Positions 24,769-40,235 of a DNA stretch of 64,000 nucleotides are shown here, in pieces. Source of the DNA: Symmetrospora coprosmae. Taxonomy: Eukaryota; Basidiomycota; Cystobasidiomycetes; Symmetrosporaceae. Under the pieces are notes generated by a model, which saw only the letters and a list, made by a program, of their open reading frames with translations, had not been told where the DNA came from and did not search any database. The stretch spans positions 124,001 through 188,000 of the forward strand of contig VUYT01000025.1 of assembly GCA_008802785.1 (NCBI GenBank), written 5' to 3'. The translations under genes were made by a program, and so were the position numbers. Position 1 is the stretch's first letter. Each line of letters opens with the position of its first letter.

Positions 24769-24794
24769 TAGCTCTTAGAGCTCGGTGAAACTAG
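24769..24794 (+). promoter_or_regulatory. cluster hairpin element, copy 2
   Basis: Arms AGCTC / GAGCT around loop TTA (outermost sixth pair mismatched), then spacer GGTGAAA and CTAG. It ends 8 nt before the ATG at 24803, so it probably lies in the mRNA leader. Confidence 0.7.
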
Positions 24795-24802
24795 TTGTCT
24801 CC

Positions 24803-27781
24803 ATGGAACGCTCCACCGAACTCAAGCTCCAGGACGAGGGGAAGCTCCTTTGCACCGAGACTCTCGCTAGCAGGCAGAAAAACATCGACGATGCTGTTGT
24901 CCAGCTCTCACGCCCATGCGCAACCCTGCGCAGCCACCTCCTCACCGCTCCCCTCGACCGGCTCGCCAATCCTGCCGACCGCTCGTCCAGGGTCCCCTTC
25001 CCCCTCGCACCGCTGGCCGAGCCAGGCAGCTACGAGCACTACACCCATCTCAAAGCCCGTCTCAGCGCCAACCAGATCAACGAGTACGTGCAGAACATCG
25101 ATTCTCGGTGCCGCACCGCTCTCGCCTGGTACCGCGCGTTCGTCAACGACGGCGACCCAGGGCAGTACCTCGAATACAGCCTCGCAGACGTCAAGCTGGT
25201 CATCCCTGAGACAACGGACCACGAGGAGCTGCCCGAGGATCTCCATCTCTCGGAGGGGGACGCTCTCTTTGGCCCGTTTACGAAGGCCAGGGTCGCCTTC
25301 GGAAACTTTGCCATCCAGAACATGTGGAGCGACAGCATGACGCCGCACACGCCCGTCCTCCTCTTCTTCGAGGATCCGCAGTACCAGCAGCACTTCGTCC
25401 TTACCGCATATACGCTGCCTGGTTCGATGGCTGCAACGGCCAAGCGCAGGAGGGACGAGGGCGAGCTAGGCTATCTCGACAAGGGCAAGGGCAAGGAGAA
25501 GGAGGAGCCTGCGCGCGATATCGTGCTTGATCTGAAGGACGAGAAGGAAGAAGAGGCTGCAGAGAAGGCTAGGGACAAGGGGTACGCCAAAGACATCTAC
25601 GTCCGCGTCTCGGCAGACGTCTACCGAAGCAACAGCAGCTTCAGAGAGGTCTGGCGCTCCACCTCAATGACACCCGGCAAGCTCCTCAGAGCAAAGGGTC
25701 TGGTCATCCGGATCGCGCGCCTCGACACGCTCTTCTTCTCGGAGTACAACCTATCGCTGCTGCCGAAACTCTCGCCTGCCAAGCAGGATGCGCTCCTCCG
25801 TCCCGCCGACTTTGCTGCCAAAGTAGAGAAGGAGCATCTGAGCAATGCAGAGTTCGGCACCTTCAAGGAAGCAGTGCAGCATTGCACGCGAGAGCAACTC
25901 GCGCCTCAACAGCTGCGCTACGCTTTCAACTATGTCGCATTTGTCGTCATGCGCAGTCTCGGCAGCAGCGACTACAGCTTTCTCGCGCTCGGCGGCCCGC
26001 CTGGTACGGGCAAGACGAGGACAATGTGTCAAGCCATCATCTACAGCCGGCAGCCCGTCATCCTCGAGTACGTCGTCCAGTATCTGCAGTCGGCTCAACA
26101 GATCTCGACAGCCACCCCCGTCGCGAGCATCGTAGCCCTCGCGCTCAAGCAGCGCGTTGTCTATATGGCGCCCACCAACGAGGCAGTCGATGAAGGGCTG
26201 GCGACGCTCAGGGAGATGCTCGCAGCGCTTCCGCTCGCCATCTCGCGACATCTCAAAGGCGTGCGCGTCTCCAAGTTCGACCGGGCGCAGAGGAAGCCCG
26301 AGCATATCCGGCACCATGCTACCTATGCTGCAGCCGAGTTGCTCCTTCCGGAATGGAAGACAGAGATAGAGAGGATTGCGAGCCAGCAAGGCGTGCGGCG
26401 CAGGCTGCTGCAGGAGTGTTGGGACCAGTACCAGAACAAGAAGATCACTCAAGAGCAGCTCACCCAAGAGAGGGTGTACATCGATGAACAACATCCGAAG
26501 GACGAGGAGAAGGCCAAGGCTATGAACCAGCGCAAGATGAAGCTGGAGAACAACCTGCCCTGGCTTCAGTCTGTCGTCGACGATCCTGCCAGCTTCGGCA
26601 GCGCCGATCTCACTGGCAGCAGGAAGCGCTTCACCAAGAGCGTTTCGGCGTTGCTCGACCAGGCCGTTGTCGACCTCGTCATCTCCGATCCCAAGGTCGT
26701 CTGCTTCATGACCACGGGGTATCCAACGCCCTACAACCAAGCTGCTGTGGACGCCCTCCTTCGAGCCATTGTCGTTCTGGACGAGGCGTCGCAGGTCCAG
26801 GCGAGTGACCTGGTGCGTGTGCTGCTCGACAGCATTGGGCTGGTAGCGTGCGGAGATGCCAAGCAGCTGGGTGCAGTCATCAAGGGAGCGGACGAGGGCA
26901 CGCTGGATCTCCGCTTCAACCTCATGGACAAGCTCGCCGACCACACGCTTTGGCTCACGCTATGCTTCCGCCTTCCCGGCGTCATCACAACCTTCCTCGA
27001 CGCGCATCGCTACAACCAGACGCGCCTACACTCGCCGACGGGGCAGAACATCCTGCGCTGGTCGCCTTTCCACGCGCTGGAGCTCTTTCAGCCGGTGATT
27101 GTGCTCGACGTCGCGGGAACGATGAGGTCCGCAGAGGGGACGAGCAAGTACAATGCAGAAGAGGCAGGCACCATTCGCAACTATCTCTTTCACTACCATC
27201 GAGCGGCTGCGGGTGCGCGGCAAGAGCCCATCGACGTTCGCGTCATTACGCCATATTCCGCCCAGGTGGAAGAGCTCAAGGCGACCTGCAAGCTGTTCTC
27301 CGGTTGCTCGAGCTTCAAGTCATTCCAGATTGGGACGATAGAGACGGCACAGGGCTCCACCACCGACCTCTGCATTGTCTCGTTGGTCGCCGCACGGAAC
27401 AGCGAGGGCGGCCTGCCCAATACCACTTTTATCGACGAGAAGAAGCTCACCGTCGCCATCTCTCGCTGCCGCTTCAACCTCGTCCTCGTCTGCGACGTGC
27501 GGTCGCTTCAGGAGGCCAACACTGGCGCCAATCTGCTCCTCGCCTCCATCCTGACGGAGCCCCGCTTTCCCCATCTCGAATCCCGCCCGTCGGACATGCG
27601 GTCAGCAGCCATCAAGCGTGTCAACGCCAATCTGGTGCAGGTCGACAAGCCGAGCCAGTGCACTGCTCCAGCAGCTGGACTCGAGTGGCTTGCCAAGGGC
27701 GAGTCGTCGGACGGGACAAAGACGAAGGAGCGCATTGACGCGCGGATTGCAGAGCTCACTGCATGCCTGGCTGTACTCTAG
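24803..27781 (+). CDS. UPF1-like SF1 RNA/DNA helicase, intronless
   Basis: One uninterrupted frame of 992 aa. The frame also opens at a GTG 18 nt upstream, but ATG 24803 is the first methionine. Residues 1-390 are not recognised and include a Lys/Glu-rich insert. The helicase core is complete: Walker A GGPPGTGKT (about 398), motif Ia VYMAPTNEAVDEG, motif II LDEASQ (about 660), motif III ACGDAKQLGAV, motif IV LCFRLPGVITTFLDAHRYN, then DVRVITPYSAQVEEL, motif V IGTIETAQGSTTDLCIVSLV and motif VI VAISRCRFNLVL. This is the AAA_11/AAA_12 pattern of UPF1/SEN1-type helicases. Absence of introns over 3 kb contrasts with neighbours. It is the second hairpin-headed gene of the cluster. Substrate unknown. 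Confidence 0.85.
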   Translation: MERSTELKLQDEGKLLCTETLASRQKNIDDAVVQLSRPCATLRSHLLTAPLDRLANPADRSSRVPFPLAPLAEPGSYEHYTHLKARLSANQINEYVQNIDSRCRTALAWYRAFVNDGDPGQYLEYSLADVKLVIPETTDHEELPEDLHLSEGDALFGPFTKARVAFGNFAIQNMWSDSMTPHTPVLLFFEDPQYQQHFVLTAYTLPGSMAATAKRRRDEGELGYLDKGKGKEKEEPARDIVLDLKDEKEEEAAEKARDKGYAKDIYVRVSADVYRSNSSFREVWRSTSMTPGKLLRAKGLVIRIARLDTLFFSEYNLSLLPKLSPAKQDALLRPADFAAKVEKEHLSNAEFGTFKEAVQHCTREQLAPQQLRYAFNYVAFVVMRSLGSSDYSFLALGGPPGTGKTRTMCQAIIYSRQPVILEYVVQYLQSAQQISTATPVASIVALALKQRVVYMAPTNEAVDEGLATLREMLAALPLAISRHLKGVRVSKFDRAQRKPEHIRHHATYAAAELLLPEWKTEIERIASQQGVRRRLLQECWDQYQNKKITQEQLTQERVYIDEQHPKDEEKAKAMNQRKMKLENNLPWLQSVVDDPASFGSADLTGSRKRFTKSVSALLDQAVVDLVISDPKVVCFMTTGYPTPYNQAAVDALLRAIVVLDEASQVQASDLVRVLLDSIGLVACGDAKQLGAVIKGADEGTLDLRFNLMDKLADHTLWLTLCFRLPGVITTFLDAHRYNQTRLHSPTGQNILRWSPFHALELFQPVIVLDVAGTMRSAEGTSKYNAEEAGTIRNYLFHYHRAAAGARQEPIDVRVITPYSAQVEELKATCKLFSGCSSFKSFQIGTIETAQGSTTDLCIVSLVAARNSEGGLPNTTFIDEKKLTVAISRCRFNLVLVCDVRSLQEANTGANLLLASILTEPRFPHLESRPSDMRSAAIKRVNANLVQVDKPSQCTAPAAGLEWLAKGESSDGTKTKERIDARIAELTACLAVL

Positions 27782-28172: not shown

Positions 28173-28187
28173 TACAAAGTGAGACCA

Positions 28188-28212
28188 GATCTGATACAGA
28201 TCGGTCGAGCTA
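28188..28212 (+). promoter_or_regulatory. cluster hairpin element, copy 3
   Basis: Arms GATCTG / CAGATC around loop ATA, then spacer GGTCGAG and CTA. A 25-bp block including the hairpin is identical to copy 4. It lies 250 nt upstream of ATG 28463. Confidence 0.75.
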
Positions 28213-28462
28213 CATCCTCCTCTACGAGCTCGCCTCGTCTTCAGACGCGCTCTGGAAGCTGCCGCCTCCGACCCGCCGCCGCCCTCTCGAGGGGAAAAAG
28301 TACGGGCGCGACACCTTGGTCGCCCGAGCAGATACGGCTTCAGCACCTAGCTAGATAGGTTCGCACGGGTGTTAGCTTCCCATCGGTGCTGGCCACGGTC
28401 GTCTTCTTCATACTTCACTCTCCACTTTCTTCTCTCGGTCCCGCTCTCCCGCGCCACCCAAA

Positions 28463-31400
28463 ATGATTGCCAGTCGGTCAACACGCACGACGCGACAGCG
28501 GGCACCAGCAGCAGCGACCACTGCTGCACCCTTCAGCCTCGACGGCGACGCTACCGCCATTGCTGCTGCTGCTGTTGTTGCTCCTGTGCCTCATGCGCCC
28601 TCGGCCCCGACGACGGCTCCAAGTACGGACGCAAGCTCGTCCTCGTCCGACGGGATGCAGTGCGACCCGGAGGAAGGCCCTCGCCTATCGGCCAAGGAGA
28701 AGGGGAAAGGACGCGACCCCGCTGCGAATGACGAGCCTGTCGCAGCAGCAGCTCCAGTGACAGCCGGCGGCTCGAGCAACCCGCGTCCCACCCCTCGCCC
28801 TCCGCGCCGCGCGACAAAGTGTAACGCATGCTATAAGCCGATAACAGAGGGACAGAAGCAGTACGAGGCAAAGCATCGTATGAGTGGCACTTTGTTCCGC
28901 TTCGCCGATGAGAGCAGCGCACTGACGAGCTTTGTTCCATCCCAGTTGCCTGCTACCACGCCCGGAAAATCGTCAGCGACTGCAAGTTCGACGTCGCCGT
29001 GTCTCGGCAGATAGGCGACAACCCGGAAGACGTGCTGCTGTTCTGCAAAGAGCTCGTCGCCTCCATCTGCCGCGAGTCGAGCTTCAAGGTTCCCGAGGAG
29101 GCTCCGCCCGTCCCCGCCGCTGCTCCCAACCCCCAGCCTGTACATGCGTCACAGGGCAGTCTCCGCTTCGCCGACTCTCGCATTCTCGAGAATGTCGACT
29201 TCTTCCAGAACGTCTTTTCGACGGCGCAGGTCTGGCAGCACTTTGTCGGAGACCTGCGGCACGATGCCGAGCTGCAGCGCAAGCTGGTCGTCAGGCTCCT
29301 GCAAGAGATCGGACAAGTCTTTGCAGAGTACACCAAGTACATGCCCGACGTCCAACTCTACTCGACTTCTGCCCACCTGGTCGGCCTCCTCCGCTGGCTG
29401 GCGAAGGGCACGTCCGACCTGTGCAATCAGCTACACGGGGAGGAGCTTCTAGATGCAGCGGAGCTCTTCTGGAAAGAAGCGAGCATCAAGAAAATCATGC
29501 TAGACATGACGAGGCACAGCCTATGGCAGGTGGAGGAGGGCGACCTCGGCCTGTGGGAGGAGCCCGTCGTCAAGCGCACGTCCCTCACACCGGAAGCCTT
29601 CATGGAGGCCGCGGACCGCCTGGAAGCGTTGATCTTTGGCAGCGCTACACCCTATTCGGACAATGCCGTCAAAATCTACGGCATCCTCGCCACCGTCAAC
29701 GCCCGCACGCGCGCGTACGACGAGCGTCCGCTCTCCCACAGCACCCTCAAAGTCCGCCGGACGGTCAAGAGAGAGAAGGCGGGGGCAGAGAACGCTGCGG
29801 GTGCAGGAGACAATGCCGAAGGAGGAGCTGCAGGCCAGACGCTTGCCGAAGGCGAGATGGACAGCAAGAAGAAGGGGAAGGAGGGGAAGGACACGAAGAA
29901 GCCCGAGAAGCCGGTCTCCAAGCTCTGCGACTTTCCCAAGCCCGGGCCGAGTGCGCCGTTCAACCCCGAAGTAGCAGCTCGAGCTGCAGAAGCAGCAAAG
30001 GCAGAGGCAGCGGCAGCGGCAGAGTCCAAGGCGCCGAAGAAGGCGGCAGCACCTTCGCGAAAGCGCAAAGCTGCTTCTAGTGCAGGCTCGGCCAACGCCA
30101 AGAAGAAGCGCGGAGAAGGGCAGGGCAATGCCAAAGCCACCGCTTCCACCTCAAGCAAGAAGAGAGCTCGCCCAGCTTCCAGCACAGACCGCGACGAGGA
30201 GGACCCGGAATGGGAGGATCAAGTTGAGCAGGAGGACGACGCCCAACCTGTAAAGAAAAAAGGGACGGCCAAGCTGTCACAGCCGGGCCCGGCGCCTCCC
30301 AGAGCCGCGAGAGCAACCAGAGCGGCCGCCTCGAAGAAGGTGTGTATCTTGTGCTGCTCCTGCTGCTGCCTCGCCAGAAGCGCGATCACGCTGACACCTC
30401 ACTGCAGTCATACGCAGAGCCGGTGGACGAGGACGCCCCCAACGGATCGACGCCCAAGAAGCAGCGTCTCGAGCCCGCAGTGCATCCGCTGCAGAACCTC
30501 TCTCCGAATAAAGCGTCATCGCCCCGACGAGGCGCTCTATCGCCCTTCCTCTCCGGAAGCTCGGTCCGAGCGAATCTGGCGCCCAAGGCAGCAGGCACGG
30601 CGGCTCCAGGGACCAGTTCTGCACCCACAGCAAGCACGCCTCGCGTGGCGCCAGGTGTGCCAACTGTCCCGGCAGAGACGTCCGCCGGTCCTCACCCTGC
30701 GCCTCCAACTCCTGCGCAACTGCCGCTGGCCGCGATGACCAGCTCGATGAACCTGACGGCCTCGGCATGCCGCGCGGATGCGCCCTCTCTAGCAGCACCA
30801 GCACCAGCATCAACACCAGCACCGGCAGCATCAGCAGCACCAGCAGCACCGGCAGCAGCATCGGCAGCAGCAGCAGCAGCCCCAACACCAGCACCGGCAG
30901 CATCAGCAGCACCAGCATCTGCAGCAGCTGCGGCTACGAGGGTTCAGTCAGCACCAGCCACAGTCACTCCATCGACAGCGGCATCTGTTGCAGCAACTGA
31001 CGGTGCCAAGGGCGGACGTCCATTGCGCGCGCGAGTCGCCGCCGGAGGGACAGGGTCAGCAGGCACAACGGGGCGCACGCCTCGACAGTCAGACAGCACC
31101 GCAGCAACCAGCGCCGGCGTACCTGCACCAGCCAAGACTGTGCCCGTCGAGGGAAGCGGAGAAGACGCGCAGGCGCCGGACGAGATGCAGGTCGTCCACA
31201 AAGTGAGTCGGCTTCGATACGGCTCCGACAGTCACCAGCTTACTTTGCTGAGGGCGCAAACCCTAGATTTACCTTTCCAAAAAGTCGAAGAAACTTCGTG
31301 ACGCCGTTACAGGCACGCCGAACATGGTCCTGACAGAGGACGTCCGCGCGGCCGACTTCCACGCACTCGATACTACGACGGCGCCTGCCAACTGTATCCA

Positions 31401-31927
31401 ATCCATCATCAGCGGCATCAATGTGATTAGCGAGGAGTGCCTCGCCGACTGGATCGCCCATAAGCGAGGTGGGCTGTGCATCGTTCCTGACTCTCTTGCG
31501 CAGCTTACTGATACCGCTCGCACATGCAGACAAGCCGAGGGACGAGCGCATTAGCACTCCTGCGTACAAGACGAAGTGCGGCTGCGGGCTGCGCGACGCT
31601 GCACTCAATCACGCGGAGAACCCGAGCTTTTTGGCGGGAAGGAGCTTCGCTCTGGACGACGCCGTCATCGGCACAGGCGAGGAGAAGAAAAGGCTTGCCG
31701 ACAGCATCAGAAGCTACATTGTAGCCGCTGGCGGTACTCTGGCCAAGTCAAGCAGTTCAAAGGTGAGCGAGCGAGCTGTCTTGGTCATGCCTGACGCTCG
31801 CGGCGGCTAAGGTCAAGATGGCGTCCACGGCCAGGTCGAAACCGTGTACAGGGACATACCTCCCACCAAGGGTGCGAGCATCCATCTAGATGCACTGATG
31901 AAAATGCTCTGGGCACAGAAAGCATGA
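28463..31927 (+). CDS. PARP-type zinc finger and tandem BRCT protein
   Basis: Exons 28463-28877, 28946-30339, 30408-31202, 31267-31468, 31530-31762 and 31835-31927 give 1,043 aa. Near residue 120 a CCHC finger of PARP type is formed across the first intron: C120-x2-C123 ... H138-x2-C141 (KCNACYKPI ... KHLACY). Residues about 155-360 form an unrecognised helical domain. A long Lys/Ala/Ser-rich linker follows, including Ala-Pro repeats coded by near-duplicate (GCA)-rich DNA at 30790-30925. The C-terminus has two BRCT-like folds: about 869-935 (GINVISEECLADWIAHKR) and about 955-1043 (SFLAGRSFALDD ... RSYIVAAGGTLAKS). The last intron is placed at 31763-31834 because that yields a complete second BRCT end. 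Inference: a nuclear protein recognising DNA breaks or flaps. Confidence 0.75.
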
Positions 31928-32013
31928 GGGCATACACAGACGATCTCCTTCTATCACACCGCAGAAGCATTAGCATGTATCAGTGACTTCCCACTCTCTT
32001 CGCAGCTTCCTTT

Positions 32014-32070
32014 TTCTTCTTCTTCTTCTTCTTCTTCTTCTTCTTCTTCTTCTTCTTCTTCTTCTTCTTT
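32014..32070. repeat. (TTC)n microsatellite
   Basis: About 57 bp of TTC trinucleotides between the BRCT gene and the XPG-Fanzor gene. Confidence 0.95.
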
Positions 32071-32419
32071 CTAGCCCGACGGCTTCGTCATCGCCTAGAT
32101 TGTGATGCTACCCCTTTGTTTGTTCCGCGAAGCTTTGGACGCGGAGTTAGCTAGCGTCGCCCCTGCAAATTTCGATGCGCTCTGCACACCGGAGGTTGGT
32201 CTCTCTTGCCCCAATTGACTCTCCCTCTTTCGCAGACGAGTATCTGCACGCCCATCAAGGAGTTGTAAGTGCTGTGCTCTGCCTGGCTGCTCTCCCTGCC
32301 CGTCAGCCCGCGCCCCGGCCCTGAGGCTGACCCTCTGCCCTTCCAATCCCCCTTTCTCCATGCAAACGACAACGACCTCGACGAATGTGCCTACGCACAC
32401 ACAATCTCAGTGACGACCA

Positions 32420-32445
32420 GATCTGATACAGATCGGTCGCGCTAG
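32420..32445 (+). promoter_or_regulatory. cluster hairpin element, copy 4
   Basis: Arms GATCTG / CAGATC around loop ATA, then spacer GGTCGCG and CTAG. It lies 76 nt upstream of ATG 32522. Nearly identical to copy 3 over 36 bp (two differences). Confidence 0.75.
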
Positions 32446-32521
32446 ATCCACAGCCCTCTTCAACCTCGCACGCCTGCGCCCGTTCTCTGCCGAGGACGGG
32501 CCGCAGAGACAGCACTCCGCC

Positions 32522-35500
32522 ATGGGCATCACCAAGGGCCATCCCTTCAAGCAGGATGCGCAGAGACGGTTAGGCAGCCACCGTCGTAATCCTGCCTATG
32601 CGAAGGACAGCTTCCCCGACATTGAGACCACCCACGAGCACGTCCGGAGTGCCCTCGCCCGCGCTAAGGAAGGCGCGTCCAGCGCGAACCAGCATCTCGG
32701 TAAGCCGGGCAGCCCCTGCAGCAGCAGCACTGACGTACAGCACTAGCTCTAATGCAGAGTTTGCTTCTGACCTGCACGCAGCTGTTGTTGTCGATGTCAA
32801 CGGCCACTTCGGTCATCTCCGGCACTCGCTCGCCGGGGAGATCTTCGAACGCCATGTGCGAGAAGCCTTCTACAGCAGCAGCGCCGACTTCGACGCGCCT
32901 ACCATCATCGCCGAAGCTTGTCAAGAGTACTCGGAACAGTTCGGTGCGCGTGTGCAGTGGCTCGACGACTCGCTCCGAAGAGGCGAGCGGCCTTTCCTGG
33001 GAGAGCAGGACAAGGTCGTACGTGTGCACGACTGCGGCAAATATGGACACCCACAGAGCGCTCATATCTGTCTACTGCTCCCACACAGACCTACTTCATC
33101 GACAATGCCCGCATCACCACTGGAGCCAAGCTCGCCGAGGCGCTGCTGCGCAAGAAGAAGACCGGGAAGGATGGTGCCGTATTCGACGCCGTTATGGAAG
33201 AGCTTGTCGCTCTACGATACGATCCACCGACGGAGCCGACAGCGCGAGTCAAGCGATGGAAACGCGTCAAGTATCTTCTCTCGCTGGTGCGACAGCACGC
33301 CTCGGCCCGGGCTGTCCTCTCCTTGTCGGCGCCGGAAGAGGCCGAGTCCATTTCAGAGGTTGCCCTCGGTCTGCCAAACCACCCTTCGACTCTTCTAAAG
33401 CGCGAAGACGTTGCCGATGCGTACGCTCGCACCAACCCTCAGCTCTGCCACGTCGCCGCCATGCACCAGTCCGTTCTCGTAGCATGCGCCGACGAAGCCG
33501 ACCTGTCGATCTACCGCTGGGCAGCCGTGGCTCGCACAACTCACACTGTCGTGGTGCTGAGCCCGGATAGCGACTTTAACTTCCTCCCGCGTCCCGAGGA
33601 GGTGCGGTACACGGTGGGCTATCGCAAGTGGTCAGGCGGCGCGCGGGGACGACCGTACGTCCTCACGGACAACCGGTCGCTGCATGACTTCCTGCCAGGC
33701 AAGCCATGGAGCACACCTGGGGAAGCGCGCAAAGCGGCTCTCATTGTCGGCCACGACTATCACCCCGGAGGTCTGAAGGGCCTCGGATTCTGGCGGCTGC
33801 AGAGGGATCCCGCCCTCCTTGCAGGTGTAAGTCGAGATGCCCACTGCACACTCGAACGATGCTGATTATATGCCTGTCTCGTTGTATCACAGCCGAGCTG
33901 GGAACCCACCATTGCTCGCCTGCGCGTGCTGGCTGCCCCTCCAGGTGCTCCGCGCATCTGGGGCCTAGCTCTCAAGGAGCTCCTGGATCATTTGACCGAC
34001 ATGCAGCATGCGCTCGACGTGCTCAATACATACTATCACCCTCCGGAGAAGTACGCGACAGCGGCGCAGCTCGACAGGCCAGCTCCAACGGTCACCATCC
34101 CGGCAGAAGGCACGCTGCCCACTCAGCATCCACGCCTCACGTTCCGCTTCAGGGCTAAGCGGCAGGGGCCGCGCCAGCAGACGGTCACGAGCGACAAAAT
34201 TGCAGTCGATGCGGCCAGTCAAGCGGCCAGTCGCCGTCCTGCCCGATGCCGGAATGAGCACATCCATGGCGCGCGCAACTCGCATCGCGCGTTTGCACCC
34301 GCTCACATGGTGCACACAGAGGCGCCGCTGCTCAACCTCCGCCGCCCGCATCACCGTCCACCCTTCGACCCGGCGATTGATGGCTTCACACTGGAGGATG
34401 ATCATGAGTCTCGCCGCGAGAGACAGTCCCTCTACGAGGGCATGGCGGGCCAGGCAACGCCGGCAGCGGCAGCAGCAGCAGCGGCGGCAGCAGGAACGAC
34501 AGCAGCGGACGCAGCAGCAGCAGAGATGGCAGCAGCAGCAGCAGCAGCAGCAGCAGGCGTAGCAGAGCACGTCCAAGAAGGAGCTGCTCTAGAGGAAGAG
34601 GAAGACGAAGAGGATGAAGAGCTGGAGCCGGCCAGCAGCTCGGACATTTCCGGCGGCATGTACCAGAACCACGTCAGCAAGCGAGACATCCGCAAGGCCG
34701 TCCGCGCTTTCAACGAGTATCACGTCGGACGCAACAATCCTCTCATCCCTCTGATCCAGCTCGTCGTCTTCAGCAAGCGCGAAATGATAGCGACCTTGAA
34801 CGAAGCCATGCGGTGCTACGCAAGGGAGCTCTGCCTGCCCGAAACCGGCGACATCGGAAAAGTGCGCTTCTGCTCATCTCCCAAAGATGCGAGGGCCCCA
34901 GTGCGCCAGCTGGTCCAGTTGTTCTTTGCGCGCCCGCCGGTCAGCGCAGAGACAGTCGAGAGGATAACGATGGAGCAGCTCATCGACGGATGGGTCGCAC
35001 GCTTCACTCCGAAGGACGGGGACAAGGACGCATGCAGGGCTCGGATCACTAGCTACATGGCAGATCATCCACCAGCACCTCTTGTGCTCGAGCGCTACCT
35101 GACGCGCTCCTACAGCGACGAGTCCATCAACGCCGACCACGGCGATCCCTGTCTTCTTCACATCGCGTCAGTCTTCCTCGACGGCAAGGGGTCGCTTTAC
35201 CCCGACCTCCCCGGAGAGAAGGACAAATGGGTCGGAGAGGTAATGCAGATTGGCGTGCACCAGAAGCGGATGAGGTCGCAGGCAGCGCTCAAGCAGTGGC
35301 TCAAAAGCGAGCTGTCGTGGATGTGCGGCAAGGATCTGGCCGCACAGGCATTGCCAATACTCTGGGACGCCCAGCACCCCGCGGTCGCCGACGAGGACTG
35401 GATTAGCACAGTCCACGGTCGTCTCGGTACCACGCCAGACACCGCTGGCACACTGCATGCCTTTTTGGAGCTGTTCAGGGATCATCACTCCTTCCTGCCG

Positions 35501-37936
35501 CTTCGAGAAGCCTATCTGTCCATCGGAAGCATCCTGGCTCGACCCAAACAGGCATACGGCGAGCTTGTACCCTTCTTCGGGATGCTGGGACGGGACTTCG
35601 CGGTCGTGAGTGCTAGTTTCTTGACGAGATCGAACGAAAGATGGAGCTGACCGCTTCATCCTGCAGAACATGCGGCCGTTTTTCGTCCATTTCGACTACG
35701 AGCAAACGCATAACATGCTCAAGAAGTGCGCCATCATCGTACCCCGGCTTCTCGCATGGTTGTCGAAATCGCCTGCTTTCTCCAGTCGGTACCGCTCTGT
35801 GCCGACTGCGCCAACGCGCAGGGAGGGCTTCCTCCGACAGAACCCAGCAGCATTCGCGCGGTCTGGAGAGACTTGGGAAGCCAACGAGGGTTGGCTGGCG
35901 AAAGTTGCCGAGATTGGAGCCGACATCCTGCAGCGCCTCGGACACGCTACCAGCGGAACAGAAGATCAGCGGATCCCGCTGATGGACGTCCTCTTCGACG
36001 ATTGCTGCCTGCGACCAGGGCACATCTGGCAGGGCACCTGGCTCACAGACGGCGTCACAGTCTGCCTGCGCATGCTAGATCTCCGCACCATCACCCTGCC
36101 AGCGGAAGGAAGCGCGACCGCTAAACTCAATCAGCGCGACCGCGTCGAACGTGCCAACCCAACAGCCGCCAACATTGCCAACCCCGTCCCTCTCGTCGAC
36201 CGCACCGTCTCGCAGATGTTCCTCTCTGTCCTCGCCGCGGACCCTAAAAGCTCCTACTGCAAGGTCGCCACCATCTCCCGGAGAGAGCTCGGCTACGCTT
36301 ATCGCCATGTCCCGGGCAGTGGGGTACGCAGGGTGTTCATACACAACACCTACGATCGCGTCGTGCGCCCCCCTCGGCAAGGTCTTGAGTCACCAGCTGT
36401 CGACAGGCCGAAAGAGATGTGCCGCAAAAAGAAGAAAATCAGCCAGCGACGGGCGGAGCATCCTCACTTTGGGACTCGGCGCATCAAGCTCGCAACAAAG
36501 GCATCCTCGAAGCAGAAGAATGGCCTCCCTGCATCCGTCCTACACGTTAGCCGCGATCGCAACGTCATCCTCGAGCAGATGGCCGCCATGGCCAACTCGC
36601 ACCACCAAGCGGTCCTCGTTCATCAAGCAGAGCAAGCACACCCTGCAGATAGCCCGGCAGTTGCCGCACAAGGCGAAGGGCCCATCGCGTCAGCTGCGCC
36701 TACTGCCACGAGCTCCGTACCGTCCATAGCCGCTCAGACCTCCGCCCTGCCAGCATCATCTACACCAGGCACCGCTCAGCAGGACACAGTCGCTGCGCCT
36801 CCGTCCCTCGCTGCACCTTTTAGCGCAGACCGTCCGCAAGAACTGATTGAGCAGTTCATCCGACTCGGACTCGACGAGGGCATCGCATTCACAATTGCCA
36901 TGGGCCTGCAGAACAGTCAGATCGATAGGAGTGCCGGTCTCGCCCTATCGTCGAAAGGTCTCGAGGCTATACGCCGCGAGGGCAACGTCCGGCAGTCGAC
37001 GCTGGAGAACAGCTTCCCCTGCGATTTCCAGGGCTTGTGGGCGGCCATCAAGCAGGCGCAGGAGTCGATCGACGCTTTGGATGAGGGTCCAGATGCCAGC
37101 TCTACACGCGTCATTCTGACGAACCAGATCAAGGAAGTGAGGCAGATAGATCAGGGTAAACGACGGCTCCTGCAGTCCGATCGTCAGTACGGCCTCACCA
37201 AGCTCCGAGCCTACCAAGCCAGGGACACGCTGTACAAGCGGTTTGCAGAGCAGCTAGCCCGCTTCATCTGGATCGATCTCACTACCCCTCTGCAACCTGC
37301 CTTTTGCGCTCTCGGCGACGGATGTGGCTTTGGACACGACGGCCGCAAGAACAAGAACCCGCCCTACGCGAAGCCGCTTATCAAGTTCGTCATGAACTGG
37401 ATGGAAGCCCGCGGCTATCCTTTCCTCGCTGTCTGGACCGACGAGGCGTTCAGCTCGCAGTGCTGCCCTGACCCTCTTTGCCGACGTCCGCCGGGAGCCT
37501 CGGACGACGATGCGAGCTGGCGACAAGAACTCGCTCAAGCGGGACCCTGCACGATGGAGAACCTCGTGTTCCGCTTACACTGGGTCCGCAGTCGGTGAGT
37601 ACAGGTACAACGATGCTCTTATTACCATTCTGGAACTGATGCATGCTCTCGTCTGACAGCATGTTCAAGCCATGGCGGAACGGCACCAATTCTCCCGTCT
37701 ACCGCATTCTGCAGTGCGAGACGTGCTTCCGTTCGTGGAACCGCGACATCAGCGCTTCTTTCTGTATATCGCAGATTGCCGAACACCAGCTCGTACACAA
37801 CGGCTTGCATCCTTGGAGACGGGAGGAAGAGGCCTTGGCCGCAGCAGGAGGTGCGACGGGCGGGGTAGGACACGGTGCGGGCAGTGCGATTGCACCAGGA
37901 GGCGCCGGCGAGGCGGTGCAACAGGAATTAGAATGA
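32522..37936 (+). CDS. XPG/FEN1-like nuclease fused to Fanzor/TnpB-like RuvC nuclease
   Basis: Exons 32522-32699, 32758-33017, 33089-33826, 33893-35605, 35667-37594 and 37660-37936 give 1,697 aa. The N-terminal part keeps the XPG/FEN1 acidic residues: D72 (VVVDVNGHF), D151 (YFIDNA), E282 and D284 (ADEADLS), D306 and D308 (LSPDSDFNFL) and D369 (IVGHDYHPGGLKGLG). A linker with Ala and Glu runs follows (residues about 560-640). The C-terminal part matches Fanzor/TnpB: GTWLTDGVTVCLRM, RuvC-I D1155 (AADPKSS, then ISRREL), the basic helix LRAYQARDTLYKRFAEQLARF, GDGCGFGHDGR, RuvC-II-position E1556 (WTDEAFSSQCC), zinc-ribbon C1563/C1568/C1625/C1628 and RuvC-III D1635 (WNRDISAS). Exon 4 is one unbroken 571-codon frame joining both halves, so the fusion is not an artefact of exon choice. 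Fanzors are RNA-guided nucleases in eukaryotes; activity here is inferred. Confidence 0.85.
34460..34560 (+). repeat. (GCA)n-rich tract coding polyalanine
   Basis: Interrupted GCAGCA units inside exon 4 of the fusion gene encode two Ala runs, followed by a Glu/Asp run. They mark the flexible linker between the nuclease halves. Confidence 0.85.
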
Positions 37937-37960
37937 ATGAGCGTCAGAATGACCTCTAGG

Positions 37961-37982
37961 GGAGAACTTTGTAAAGGTCTCC
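37961..37982 (+). terminator. hairpin just downstream of the fusion gene
   Basis: Nine-base arms with one mismatch around a 4-nt loop. It could be a 3'-end processing structure or part of a guide RNA scaffold; position is the only evidence. Confidence 0.3.
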
Positions 37983-38032
37983 TTGTCACTTAACAGCTGC
38001 CTAGTCGACAGTAATGCAGCAGATGCTCGGGC

Positions 38033-38113
38033 TCTTCACCTCCAACCTGACCTTCAGGCCCGCTGCTGCCAGCGAGACCCGTTCCAGGCGGAGACACCTC
38101 CTCACTCGTCGAG
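38033..38113 (-). repeat. 81-bp direct repeat, downstream copy
   Basis: Identical over 81 bp to 38592-38672, which is coding sequence in the last exon of the membrane-protein gene. On the minus strand this copy still reads STSEEVSPPGTGLAGSSGPE, but outside any gene. Confidence 0.95.
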
Positions 38114-38461
38114 CCGGTGCCATGCTGGATCGTAGAAGCGTCCATGTCTGCGATGCAATGCAATGCAGTGCAGTGCTCGCTAGGAGCAGCTGAGGATCGT
38201 GCGGATGGAGAAGGGCATCGGAGGCAGGCGTCTCTCGACACGCGAGCACGCGCAGGGCAAGCTTACTGTAAAGGAGACGCACTCGAGCACACGATACCAA
38301 CGCTGTAGTTGCGACACCCAGTAATATGCTACAAGACGACGACATGATTAACAGTAGCGCATAAACTACAGTGTGCGGAGCGACGCGAATTAGGTAGCGA
38401 CAGAGGCCGGCCAAGAGTCCATGGCTTTTGTCGAAAACTTGCATCTACGGGAAAGTCCTGA

Positions 38462-40235
38462 TCACTTGCTGATCCAGCCACGGCTGCTGTGCGGCTCGGA
38501 CGCGTAGTGCGCGAGCGTTGAGCCTTCGCTGACGAGCGTGCCATTGTCCGAGATGGCGCGCTGCCGGGCCAGGTCCATGCTCGTTGCCTGGTCTTCACCT
38601 CCAACCTGACCTTCAGGCCCGCTGCTGCCAGCGAGACCCGTTCCAGGCGGAGACACCTCCTCACTCGTCGAGTCCGGGTATCGCGATACGCTGCTGGCGT
38701 TTGTCACGGCGCGTGAGAGCTGGCCACCGAATGAAAGTCAACGTCAGTCGCGTTGCAGACCGGACAAATCGGGGAGCAAGACCCACCGCTGGTGTAGAGA
38801 TGTTCGCGGGATCGTTGGTCACGCGCAGCCCGCCAGTCGTCCCGAAGAGCTGCATGCTCGTCGCCGACGAGAGCGTTCCGGACTCCGAGGGCGCCCGTGC
38901 AGAGACAGGCCGGCTCTGCTGCCGGCCAGCTGGGTAGGACGGGAACGCCGCCATTTGCGGCATGGATCGCGGACCAGGGGCAGCAGAGTCGTATGTGCGG
39001 ACAGAAGCGAGACTCCGGGCGTCCTCGCTCGGGCGGCGCGTGTGCCCTAACGTGGCAGCGGTGGGCAACGGCGGGTCGAGGAAAGGGTTGTTCCTGTCGA
39101 GCCGGGCGGAGAGATGAGCAAGCGTCAGCGGCTGCAGCCACCCGACTGATGGCACCGGACAGATCCGTAAACTCACTCTCCGTGCGTCGAAGTGGGCGAG
39201 GGCGCCTCCTTCTCGTACTGCCGATTCTTGTCGGCAAAGGCTGCGGTCGGCACAAAGTCGCTAGTGTCCGAGAGACTTGAGACGCGTCTGTGGCGCTTGA
39301 CACCCGCTGCAGCAGCCATCCCGGCCGCTCCGGCCGCCGCGACGGTTGCGCCTCCGCCTAGCCCTTCGCTTCCCGCAAAGCTGCTCGCATCGTCATCGAC
39401 CAGGTTGAACCTTCGCGGGCCTCGAAGGCGCGCGCGACGGGCATTGTTGAGCAGCGAGTAGAGGTAAAGTGCGCCCGCGAGCGCGGCAAAGAAGAGCACG
39501 CCAAACAGGACTGCCACAATCAGGAGGGAGCGGCTGTCGAGGGCGCTCCCGCGGTTTGTGGCCACGCCATTCGGGTTCATGTACACGGTCTGTGTAACAA
39601 ATTCGGCGGTCCGCGCGCTGTCGAGGCACGAGGCGTCGTCGCTGGTTTCGACGAGTGCGGGCTCGGTAACCTGGCGGTAGGTCCCTGTGTGGTCAACGAG
39701 GGTGATCCTGTGCGATTGACGGAGAAGCAGCGAGTCAGATCACTGTCGCTGTCGTGTACGCAGGATGTGGTGCTGAAACCGGTGAAACGCACCAGGCGTA
39801 GCTACCCGCGGGCACGTCAGCTTTCCACGAGATGACATTGGAGTTGGCCGCTTCGGATGGCATGCCGGCTGAGTAGAATTGGACCTCAGCGGAGCTCGTG
39901 CAGAACGGGCAGATGTGGTCGAAGCTTACGAGTCGACTTCCAGTCGGAGCTGCGGTCTTCCTGGTAGACTGAAGCAGACCCGCAGGGCGTCAGACTAGGC
40001 CACAGTTTCCAATGCAGATAGTCCTCTGAACGTACATGACTCGACTCTGACGGGGAACTGGCCGCCCTGTGGTCGCATCAGATGCATCAGCCTTGCGTTG
40101 CACTTTGGCCGGACAGACTCGGTGGCGGCCCAGTACAAGGTAGAGAAAGAATCGCGAGCTCACCTGCCACGAGATGATGACATCCTGGCATTGCGCAACA
40201 GTCCCGTTGAAGACGGGCGGTGCTAGATCCGACAT
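38462..40235 (-). CDS. single-pass membrane protein with KNH-like ectodomain
   Basis: Proposed exons 40235-40164, 40066-40036, 39968-39930, 39868-39793, 39707-39178, 39093-38787 and 38720-38462 give 437 aa. The N-terminal part (GTVAQCQDVIISWQGGQFPVR... VISWKADVPAGSYAWITLVD) resembles the beta-sandwich of fungal Ser-Thr-rich GPI/Kre9-like surface proteins. A transmembrane segment follows (LLIVAVLFGVLFFAALAGAL), then RRARLRGPRR and a long Ser/Pro-rich cytoplasmic tail. The 5' exon junctions are uncertain: an alternative with an 11-nt exon (40036-40046) also keeps the frame. The ATG at 40235 lacks a signal peptide, so an upstream exon is likely. A surface sensor or receptor role is inference. 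Confidence 0.6.
38592..38672 (-). repeat. 81-bp direct repeat, genic copy
   Basis: Lies in the last exon of the membrane-protein gene. The flanks of the two copies differ immediately at both ends. Confidence 0.95.

Follow-up and report, generated by a model that had tools for sequence, protein, structure and literature searches.

The systems closest to the gene described here are the Fanzor1 proteins, the bacterial and archaeal TnpB proteins, and the FEN1/XPG/EXO1/GEN1 nuclease family. According to PMC10711439, Fanzors are set apart by a DPG motif at RuvC-I, which is near exclusive to them, and by a glutamate (Ealt) that precedes the zinc finger by six residues, and a TDG motif in the WED domain marks Fanzor1. 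The motif [TS][TS]xx-[C4]-x(5,50)-RD for Fanzor/TnpB was taken from PMC3627910. In the current study, a gene at 32522-37936 (+ strand) was analyzed within a 64,000-nucleotide stretch of Symmetrospora coprosmae DNA (contig VUYT01000025.1), the whole of which is referred to as the window. On balance, the gene probably encodes a single protein that consists of an XPG/FEN1-like module, an acidic linker rich in Ala, and a divergent effector of the Fanzor1 type, and that might make both a guided cut and a flap cut. A pairing of Fanzor with an XPG-type nuclease was not found described in the open full text of PMC, outside which most subscription journals lie, in agreement with an earlier note on this DNA, which knew of no described Fanzor with a flap nuclease domain.

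Like the Fanzor1 proteins, the protein contains TDG, a C4 finger followed by RD, and a glutamate that precedes this finger by six residues. It differs from them in its additional XPG-like module, in lacking DPG, in the Cx4C form of its first cysteine pair, in the approximately 400 residues between the RuvC-I aspartate candidates and the glutamate, and in that no transposon ends were found when about 540 bases on either side were compared. With bacterial and archaeal TnpB it shares the TNB zinc/RuvC-III domain, [TS][TS]xxC and the RD motif, but its glutamate is in the Fanzor position and its gene has introns. The H3TH loop (GHDYHPGGLKGLGF) is close to that of archaeal FEN-1, and the EAD and DSD motifs and the MGI start are likenesses to the FEN1/XPG/EXO1/GEN1 family seen by eye, whereas the rest of the core is too diverged for the profiles used. 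Because DPG and a CxxC first pair are absent and the distance of the RuvC-I aspartate is off, the protein is called Fanzor-like and not Fanzor.

Gene model and coding evidence

The six-exon model of the earlier note was borne out by an ATG at 32522, five introns of 58-82 bases that are all GT..AG, an open frame, and a stop codon ending at 37936. The protein has 1689 residues, or 1697 if the alternative intron 1 acceptor at 32757 is used; numbering here follows the 1689-residue model, and the numbers of the earlier note are higher by 8 after residue 59. All residues named in that note were found in their places. The reading frame is kept with each of the intron 2 donors 33015, 33018 and 33024. 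The features of the gene are as follows.

32522 to 32699, + strand: exon 1, starting MGITKG
32782 (or 32758) to 33017, + strand: exon 2, with the VVVD strand and D64 (assigned by eye)
33089 to 33826, + strand: exon 3, with D143, E274/D276 (EAD) and D298/D300 (DSD), all by eye, and the H3TH loop
33737 to 33796, + strand: H3TH motif ALIVGHDYHPGGLKGLGFWR, residues 355-374, found by the FEN-1 matrix and PDB matches
33893 to 35605, + strand: exon 4, open for 571 codons and connecting the two halves
34418 to 34660, + strand: Ala-rich, acidic linker within exon 4, approximately residues 560-640
35667 to 37594, + strand: exon 5, with the TDG strand, RuvC-I region, GDG..G, E1548 and the first Cys pair
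36045 to 36053, + strand: TDG (T1082-D1083-G1084), a possible Fanzor1 WED-domain motif
36198 to 36200, + strand: D1133 (PLVDRTV; PLVDRTVSQMFLSV), the favoured RuvC-I aspartate
36240 to 36242, + strand: D1147 (D1155 of the earlier note), followed by P-K instead of P-G
approximately residues 1286-1326, + strand: low-complexity insert within exon 5
37443 to 37481, + strand: E1548, S1551-S1552 and C1555..C1560; E1548 is the RuvC-II glutamate and precedes the finger by six residues
37660 to 37936, + strand: exon 6, with C1617xxC1620, RuvC-III D1627 (WNRDISA) and the stop codon

The 571 codons of exon 4 contain no stop and share the genomic frame of exon 3, and the claim that this exon bridges the two halves was upheld by that frame and by a codon model. 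The model, trained on nine other open reading frames (ORFs) of the window and scored per 300 bases, was positive for the modelled frame within exons 2-5 with two exceptions (0.0 at 34300-34599, in the Ala-rich stretch, and -1.7 at 36550-36849, in exon 5), and its score dropped where introns were overlapped. Exons 1 and 6 had no support from the codon model, the score of exon 6 being negative. An unseen intron could sit in the weak stretch of exon 5. The gene is open, and its coding frame is unbroken between the N-terminal and C-terminal modules.

N-terminal XPG/FEN1-like module

A search of residues 60-436 against the PDB (177,635 sequences) gave three matches at E ≤ 10, 1a76, 1b43 and 1mc8, all of them archaeal FEN-1 (E 0.43, 0.53 and 1.4; none significant singly) and all aligned at one loop, DYHPGGLKGLGF / LIVGHDYHPGGLKGLGF. 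A profile built from 26 archaeal FEN-1 proteins matched with E 3e-4 in hmmsearch (four sequences searched) and with P 6.4e-6 in hhalign (score 46.5, probability 85%), where none of 300 shuffles was as good (28.3 or less) and 19 other ORFs of the window reached 18.6 at most. The H3TH motif, with its metal-binding aspartate, is a feature of the XPG/FEN1 family that is directly seen here, and was the best window for the FEN-1 matrix in the whole protein (34.0, next -4.8). Judged by these comparisons, the FEN-1-like H3TH motif lies beyond chance.

When the H3TH loop was masked, the N-terminal hhalign score fell to 14.5 (P 0.39), close to the shuffle median of 14.3, so that six further acidic residues present in the module (D64, D143, E274, D276, D298 and D300) are by-eye assignments with no profile support. 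All seven acidic positions of XPG nucleases had been claimed for this protein; the residues are there, and the homology of all seven was not sustained. The archaeal FEN-1 motif matrices did not pick D64, D143, E274 or D276, and the DSD window ranked second for them in residues 1-440. By eye, EAD and DSD look right for EXO1-type enzymes, and MGITKG resembles the MG[IV] with which XPG-family nucleases begin. Cross-controls in hhalign gave P 0.5 for the XPG part against the TnpB profile, and P 0.13 and 0.82 for the middle part against the two profiles. AlphaFold2 run on exon 3 alone without an alignment gave a predicted local distance difference test (pLDDT) value of 38.6, which is unusable for a PIN-like alpha/beta fold.

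C-terminal Fanzor/TnpB-like module

For the whole protein, Cas12f1-like_TNB was the sole family listed among 24,736 in Pfam (E 0.15, residues 1538-1634), where listing extended to E ≤ 10 and filters removed most matches above 0.1; this match crosses the junction of exons 5 and 6. With residues 1435-1647 as query it was again the only one listed (E 0.002). When 17 archaeal TnpB proteins were combined into a profile, it matched with E 0.006 in hmmsearch (four sequences searched) and scored 35.3 in hhalign (P 2.5e-4; maximum in 300 shuffles 25.1). The TnpB matrix for RuvC-II with the first Cys pair had its best window in the whole protein at 1541 (8.3, next 3.5) and the RuvC-III matrix at 1617 (10.9, next 3.7), in the right place and order.

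Several of the published motifs can be read directly in this part of the protein. The Fanzor1 TDG motif is present at T1082-G1084 (its placement in a WED domain being putative), the glutamate is in the Fanzor position (E1548-x6-C1555), the second Cys pair is followed by the RuvC-III aspartate (C1617xxC1620-x6-D1627, in agreement with CxxC-x(4,8)-D), and the [TS][TS]xx-[C4]-x(5,50)-RD motif is found. Of 20,000 shuffles, 3 contained the [TS][TS]xx-C4-RD signature; when the whole protein was shuffled 20,000 times, a relaxed E-x6-C..C-x(4,8)-D signature appeared 5 times, and 0 times with TDG and D added. As these expressions were composed after the sequence had been viewed, the counts overstate the surprise. 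The TnpB-type C-terminal motif is beyond chance. A phmmer search of the RuvC part against the PDB gave four rows, the best (E 0.027) being a designed protein, with no TnpB or Fanzor among them. The structure of residues 1341-1597 predicted without an alignment was unusable (pLDDT 44.5).

The RuvC-I aspartate

The Fanzor/TnpB layout described in the earlier note held for TDG, E1548, the Cys pairs and RD, and became doubtful for D1155 (D1147 here) as the RuvC-I aspartate. In residues 1060-1240, D1133 marked the best TnpB RuvC-I window (-5.8, versus -13.2 for D1147) with a matrix built from six sequences, and ten windows elsewhere in the protein outscored it. In three archaeal TnpB proteins (L046, L048, L050) the second strand after the catalytic strand ends AD(A/S)KGRE, which AADPKSS at D1147 resembles, so that D1147 would fall in a turn. 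The published distance from the catalytic aspartate to the C4 motif is 125-275 residues; here S1551 is preceded by D1133 at about 417 residues and by D1147 at about 403, a spacing that might be due to a long insert. D1133 is favoured over D1147, without certainty.

Proposed mechanism and evidence weighing against it

In the proposed mechanism, a 5'-nuclease module of the XPG/FEN1 type (approximately residues 1-384) would be joined by the linker to a Fanzor1-like part (approximately 640-1650). The Fanzor-like part would bind a guide RNA and open the matching DNA site, a split RuvC centre (D1133 or D1147, E1548 and D1627) would cut the DNA, and the XPG-like part would cut branched or flapped DNA remaining at the R-loop or during repair. 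The folds and activity of both parts, the guide RNA, a nuclear site of action and any link between the cuts are what we infer. That one polypeptide makes both cuts, as an RNA-guided nuclease of eukaryotes carrying its own flap nuclease, in which the Fanzor-like half finds and opens the target and the XPG-like half resolves the branched strand, is a tentative proposal and rather doubtful. If active, the protein would be a Fanzor-like enzyme with its own structure-specific nuclease, and would let the coupling of RNA-guided cutting and flap processing be tested in eukaryotes.

Several results weigh against a Fanzor1-like effector fused to an XPG-like nuclease. RuvC-I was not recovered by profile, and neither candidate aspartate is part of a DPG (D1133-R-T; D1147-P-K). 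The first Cys pair, C1555-x4-C1560, is Cx4C and not CxxC, the Cys pairs are 56 residues apart versus 12-18 in the expression given in PMC10711439, and the strict Fanzor expression had no match in the protein. Cas12f1-like_TNB scored 18.7 bits on residues 1435-1647, below the Pfam cut-off of 26.3, and the hhalign probability against TnpB was 30% (compact query), versus 85% for FEN-1. Against the TnpB profile, another ORF in the window, one with a FYVE zinc finger, scored 30.5, versus 38.1 for the whole protein, indicating that generic zinc-ribbon spacing accounts for part of the TnpB signal. Pfam listed no XPG family for the whole protein or its pieces, no guide RNA was identified in the three 3' stretches that were fold-tested, and no relatives were confirmed in the viral, prokaryotic and phage collections in which they were sought. 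The profile comparison of the two halves, suggested in the earlier note, gave TNB at E 0.002 (below the cut-off) and FEN-1 at P 6.4e-6, with no XPG family listed by Pfam. Overall, each half appears to be independently backed, to a modest degree, and the tests of both halves together with the unbroken frame support the earlier view that XPG/FEN1-like and Fanzor/TnpB-like modules lie in one protein.

Transposon ends, guide RNA and leader

Inverted and direct repeats between 31979-32521 and 37937-38462 (about 540 bases per flank) were at chance level, the best inverted match being equalled in 107 of 200 shuffles and the best direct match in 104 of 200. A 16/20 inverted match (32178/38382) that had looked promising was rejected as transposon ends, as 107 of 200 dinucleotide shuffles equalled it. 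Fanzor elements without terminal inverted repeats are reported in PMC3627910, and known Fanzor elements carry reRNAs on the 3' side according to PMC10711439. Three stretches 3' of the gene were no more stable in folding than shuffled sequence (z -1.0, -0.5 and +1.5). In the window, nothing reached the Rfam gathering threshold and no tRNA was found.

A stable structure was found on the 5' side of the gene:

32400 to 32521, + strand: two-hairpin leader directly before the ATG (-49.6 kcal/mol, z -4.7, 0 of 200 shuffles)

No Rfam match was found inside the leader, and one chance-level snoRNA row lay nearby. The first leader hairpin recurs upstream of the neighbouring gene, as part of a 35-nucleotide repeat (28183-28217 and 32415-32449; 33/35 identical) that contains a hairpin-forming palindrome and has a 19-nucleotide core exceeding chance expectation. 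The two copies precede two adjacent + strand genes (ATG 28463, in our reading, and ATG 32522). The repeat is possibly a shared regulatory site, and for the leader this role is more probable than that of a guide RNA.

Alternative explanations

A gene derived from a Fanzor and kept by the host, which has an inactive RuvC centre and provides a working XPG-like nuclease with a platform that binds DNA or RNA, is unlikely but is the most probable of the alternatives. RuvC-I lacks DPG and its aspartate is unsettled, the recognised neighbours are ordinary eukaryotic genes, the inverted match of the near flanks is of chance quality, and the window holds no second copy of the gene; nevertheless the protein retains both Cys pairs as well as E1548 and D1627, and a candidate aspartate is still present in the right region. 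If the RuvC centre were dead, the gene would show a Fanzor that a host has retained to support a nuclease of the repair type. Distinctly less probable is that the C-terminal half is an unrelated zinc-ribbon protein whose resemblance to TnpB is due to chance, so that the assignment would be correct for the XPG-like part only. The weak scores, with the FYVE control at 30.5 and the whole protein at 38.1, the RuvC-I that profiles did not recover, and the phmmer search of the PDB without TnpB or Fanzor fit this explanation, but TNB is the sole Pfam family listed for residues 1435-1647, and the glutamate position, RD motif and TDG match the published Fanzor pattern.

Very improbable is an arrangement in which an XPG-like gene ends at 33865 and a separate, Fanzor-like gene next to it begins within exon 4. 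Were intron 3 left unspliced, the exon 3 frame would indeed stop at 33865; however, the splice sites of intron 3 had the top score among the five introns in a simple splice score, and the coding signal returns in the same frame after its 66 bases, leaving little space for a separate terminator and promoter.

Searches for relatives

Single-protein scans, which reach close relatives only, confirmed no relative of exons 3, 4 and 5 in viral contigs or of exon 5 in prokaryotic genome contigs, and the archaeal FEN-1 alignment likewise confirmed none in viral contigs. Exon 3 had no match in phages. The six phage matches of exon 5 (E 0.4-8) were taken as chance; two were annotated putative ribonuclease H (E 1, residues 1118-1278), three lay over DnaE polymerase and one over hypothetical proteins. 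A WNRDVNA DNA pattern gave eight loci in viral contigs, none resembling the fusion protein, although two of them (L074, L079) have a TnpB/Cas12-like end. PHROGs and NCBIfam gave nothing better than E 0.16 for exons 3, 4, 5 and 6, and the five rows obtained with the whole protein against the PDB (E 0.11-5.8) were discarded, four being ribosomal low-complexity matches and one a bromodomain chain.

Some uncharacterised large proteins of Mucoromycota may be XPG-like at the start and Fanzor-like at the end. If these proteins do share the layout, the fusion would be part of a wider fungal family.

Neighbouring genes

The window is from a eukaryotic chromosome, with short introns, dense genes and a GC content of 58-64%, features that by themselves would point to a fungus, perhaps a basidiomycete. 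The families matched by other ORFs are FYVE, PX, G-patch, a GBF1-like repeat, AAA_11/AAA_12, RNA 3'-terminal phosphate cyclase, dynactin, DUF676, Rad21/Rec8 and gamma-tubulin complex, and 9 of the 19 scanned ORFs had no Pfam family at E 0.01. The match to AAA_11 and AAA_12 is in an open frame of 1000 codons at 24779-27778, which is probably a Upf1-like helicase.

The large upstream gene (28463-31978, + strand; bounds in our reading) contains low-complexity repeats and a CxxC motif, and its end looks possibly BRCT-like by eye; in Pfam, four of its pieces gave a single row (E 9.3) and a fifth none at E 0.01. Just behind the gene analyzed here, an exact 81-nucleotide duplication (38033-38113 and 38592-38672) repeats part of the 3' coding sequence of an apparent minus-strand neighbour, whose frame ends at 38462.

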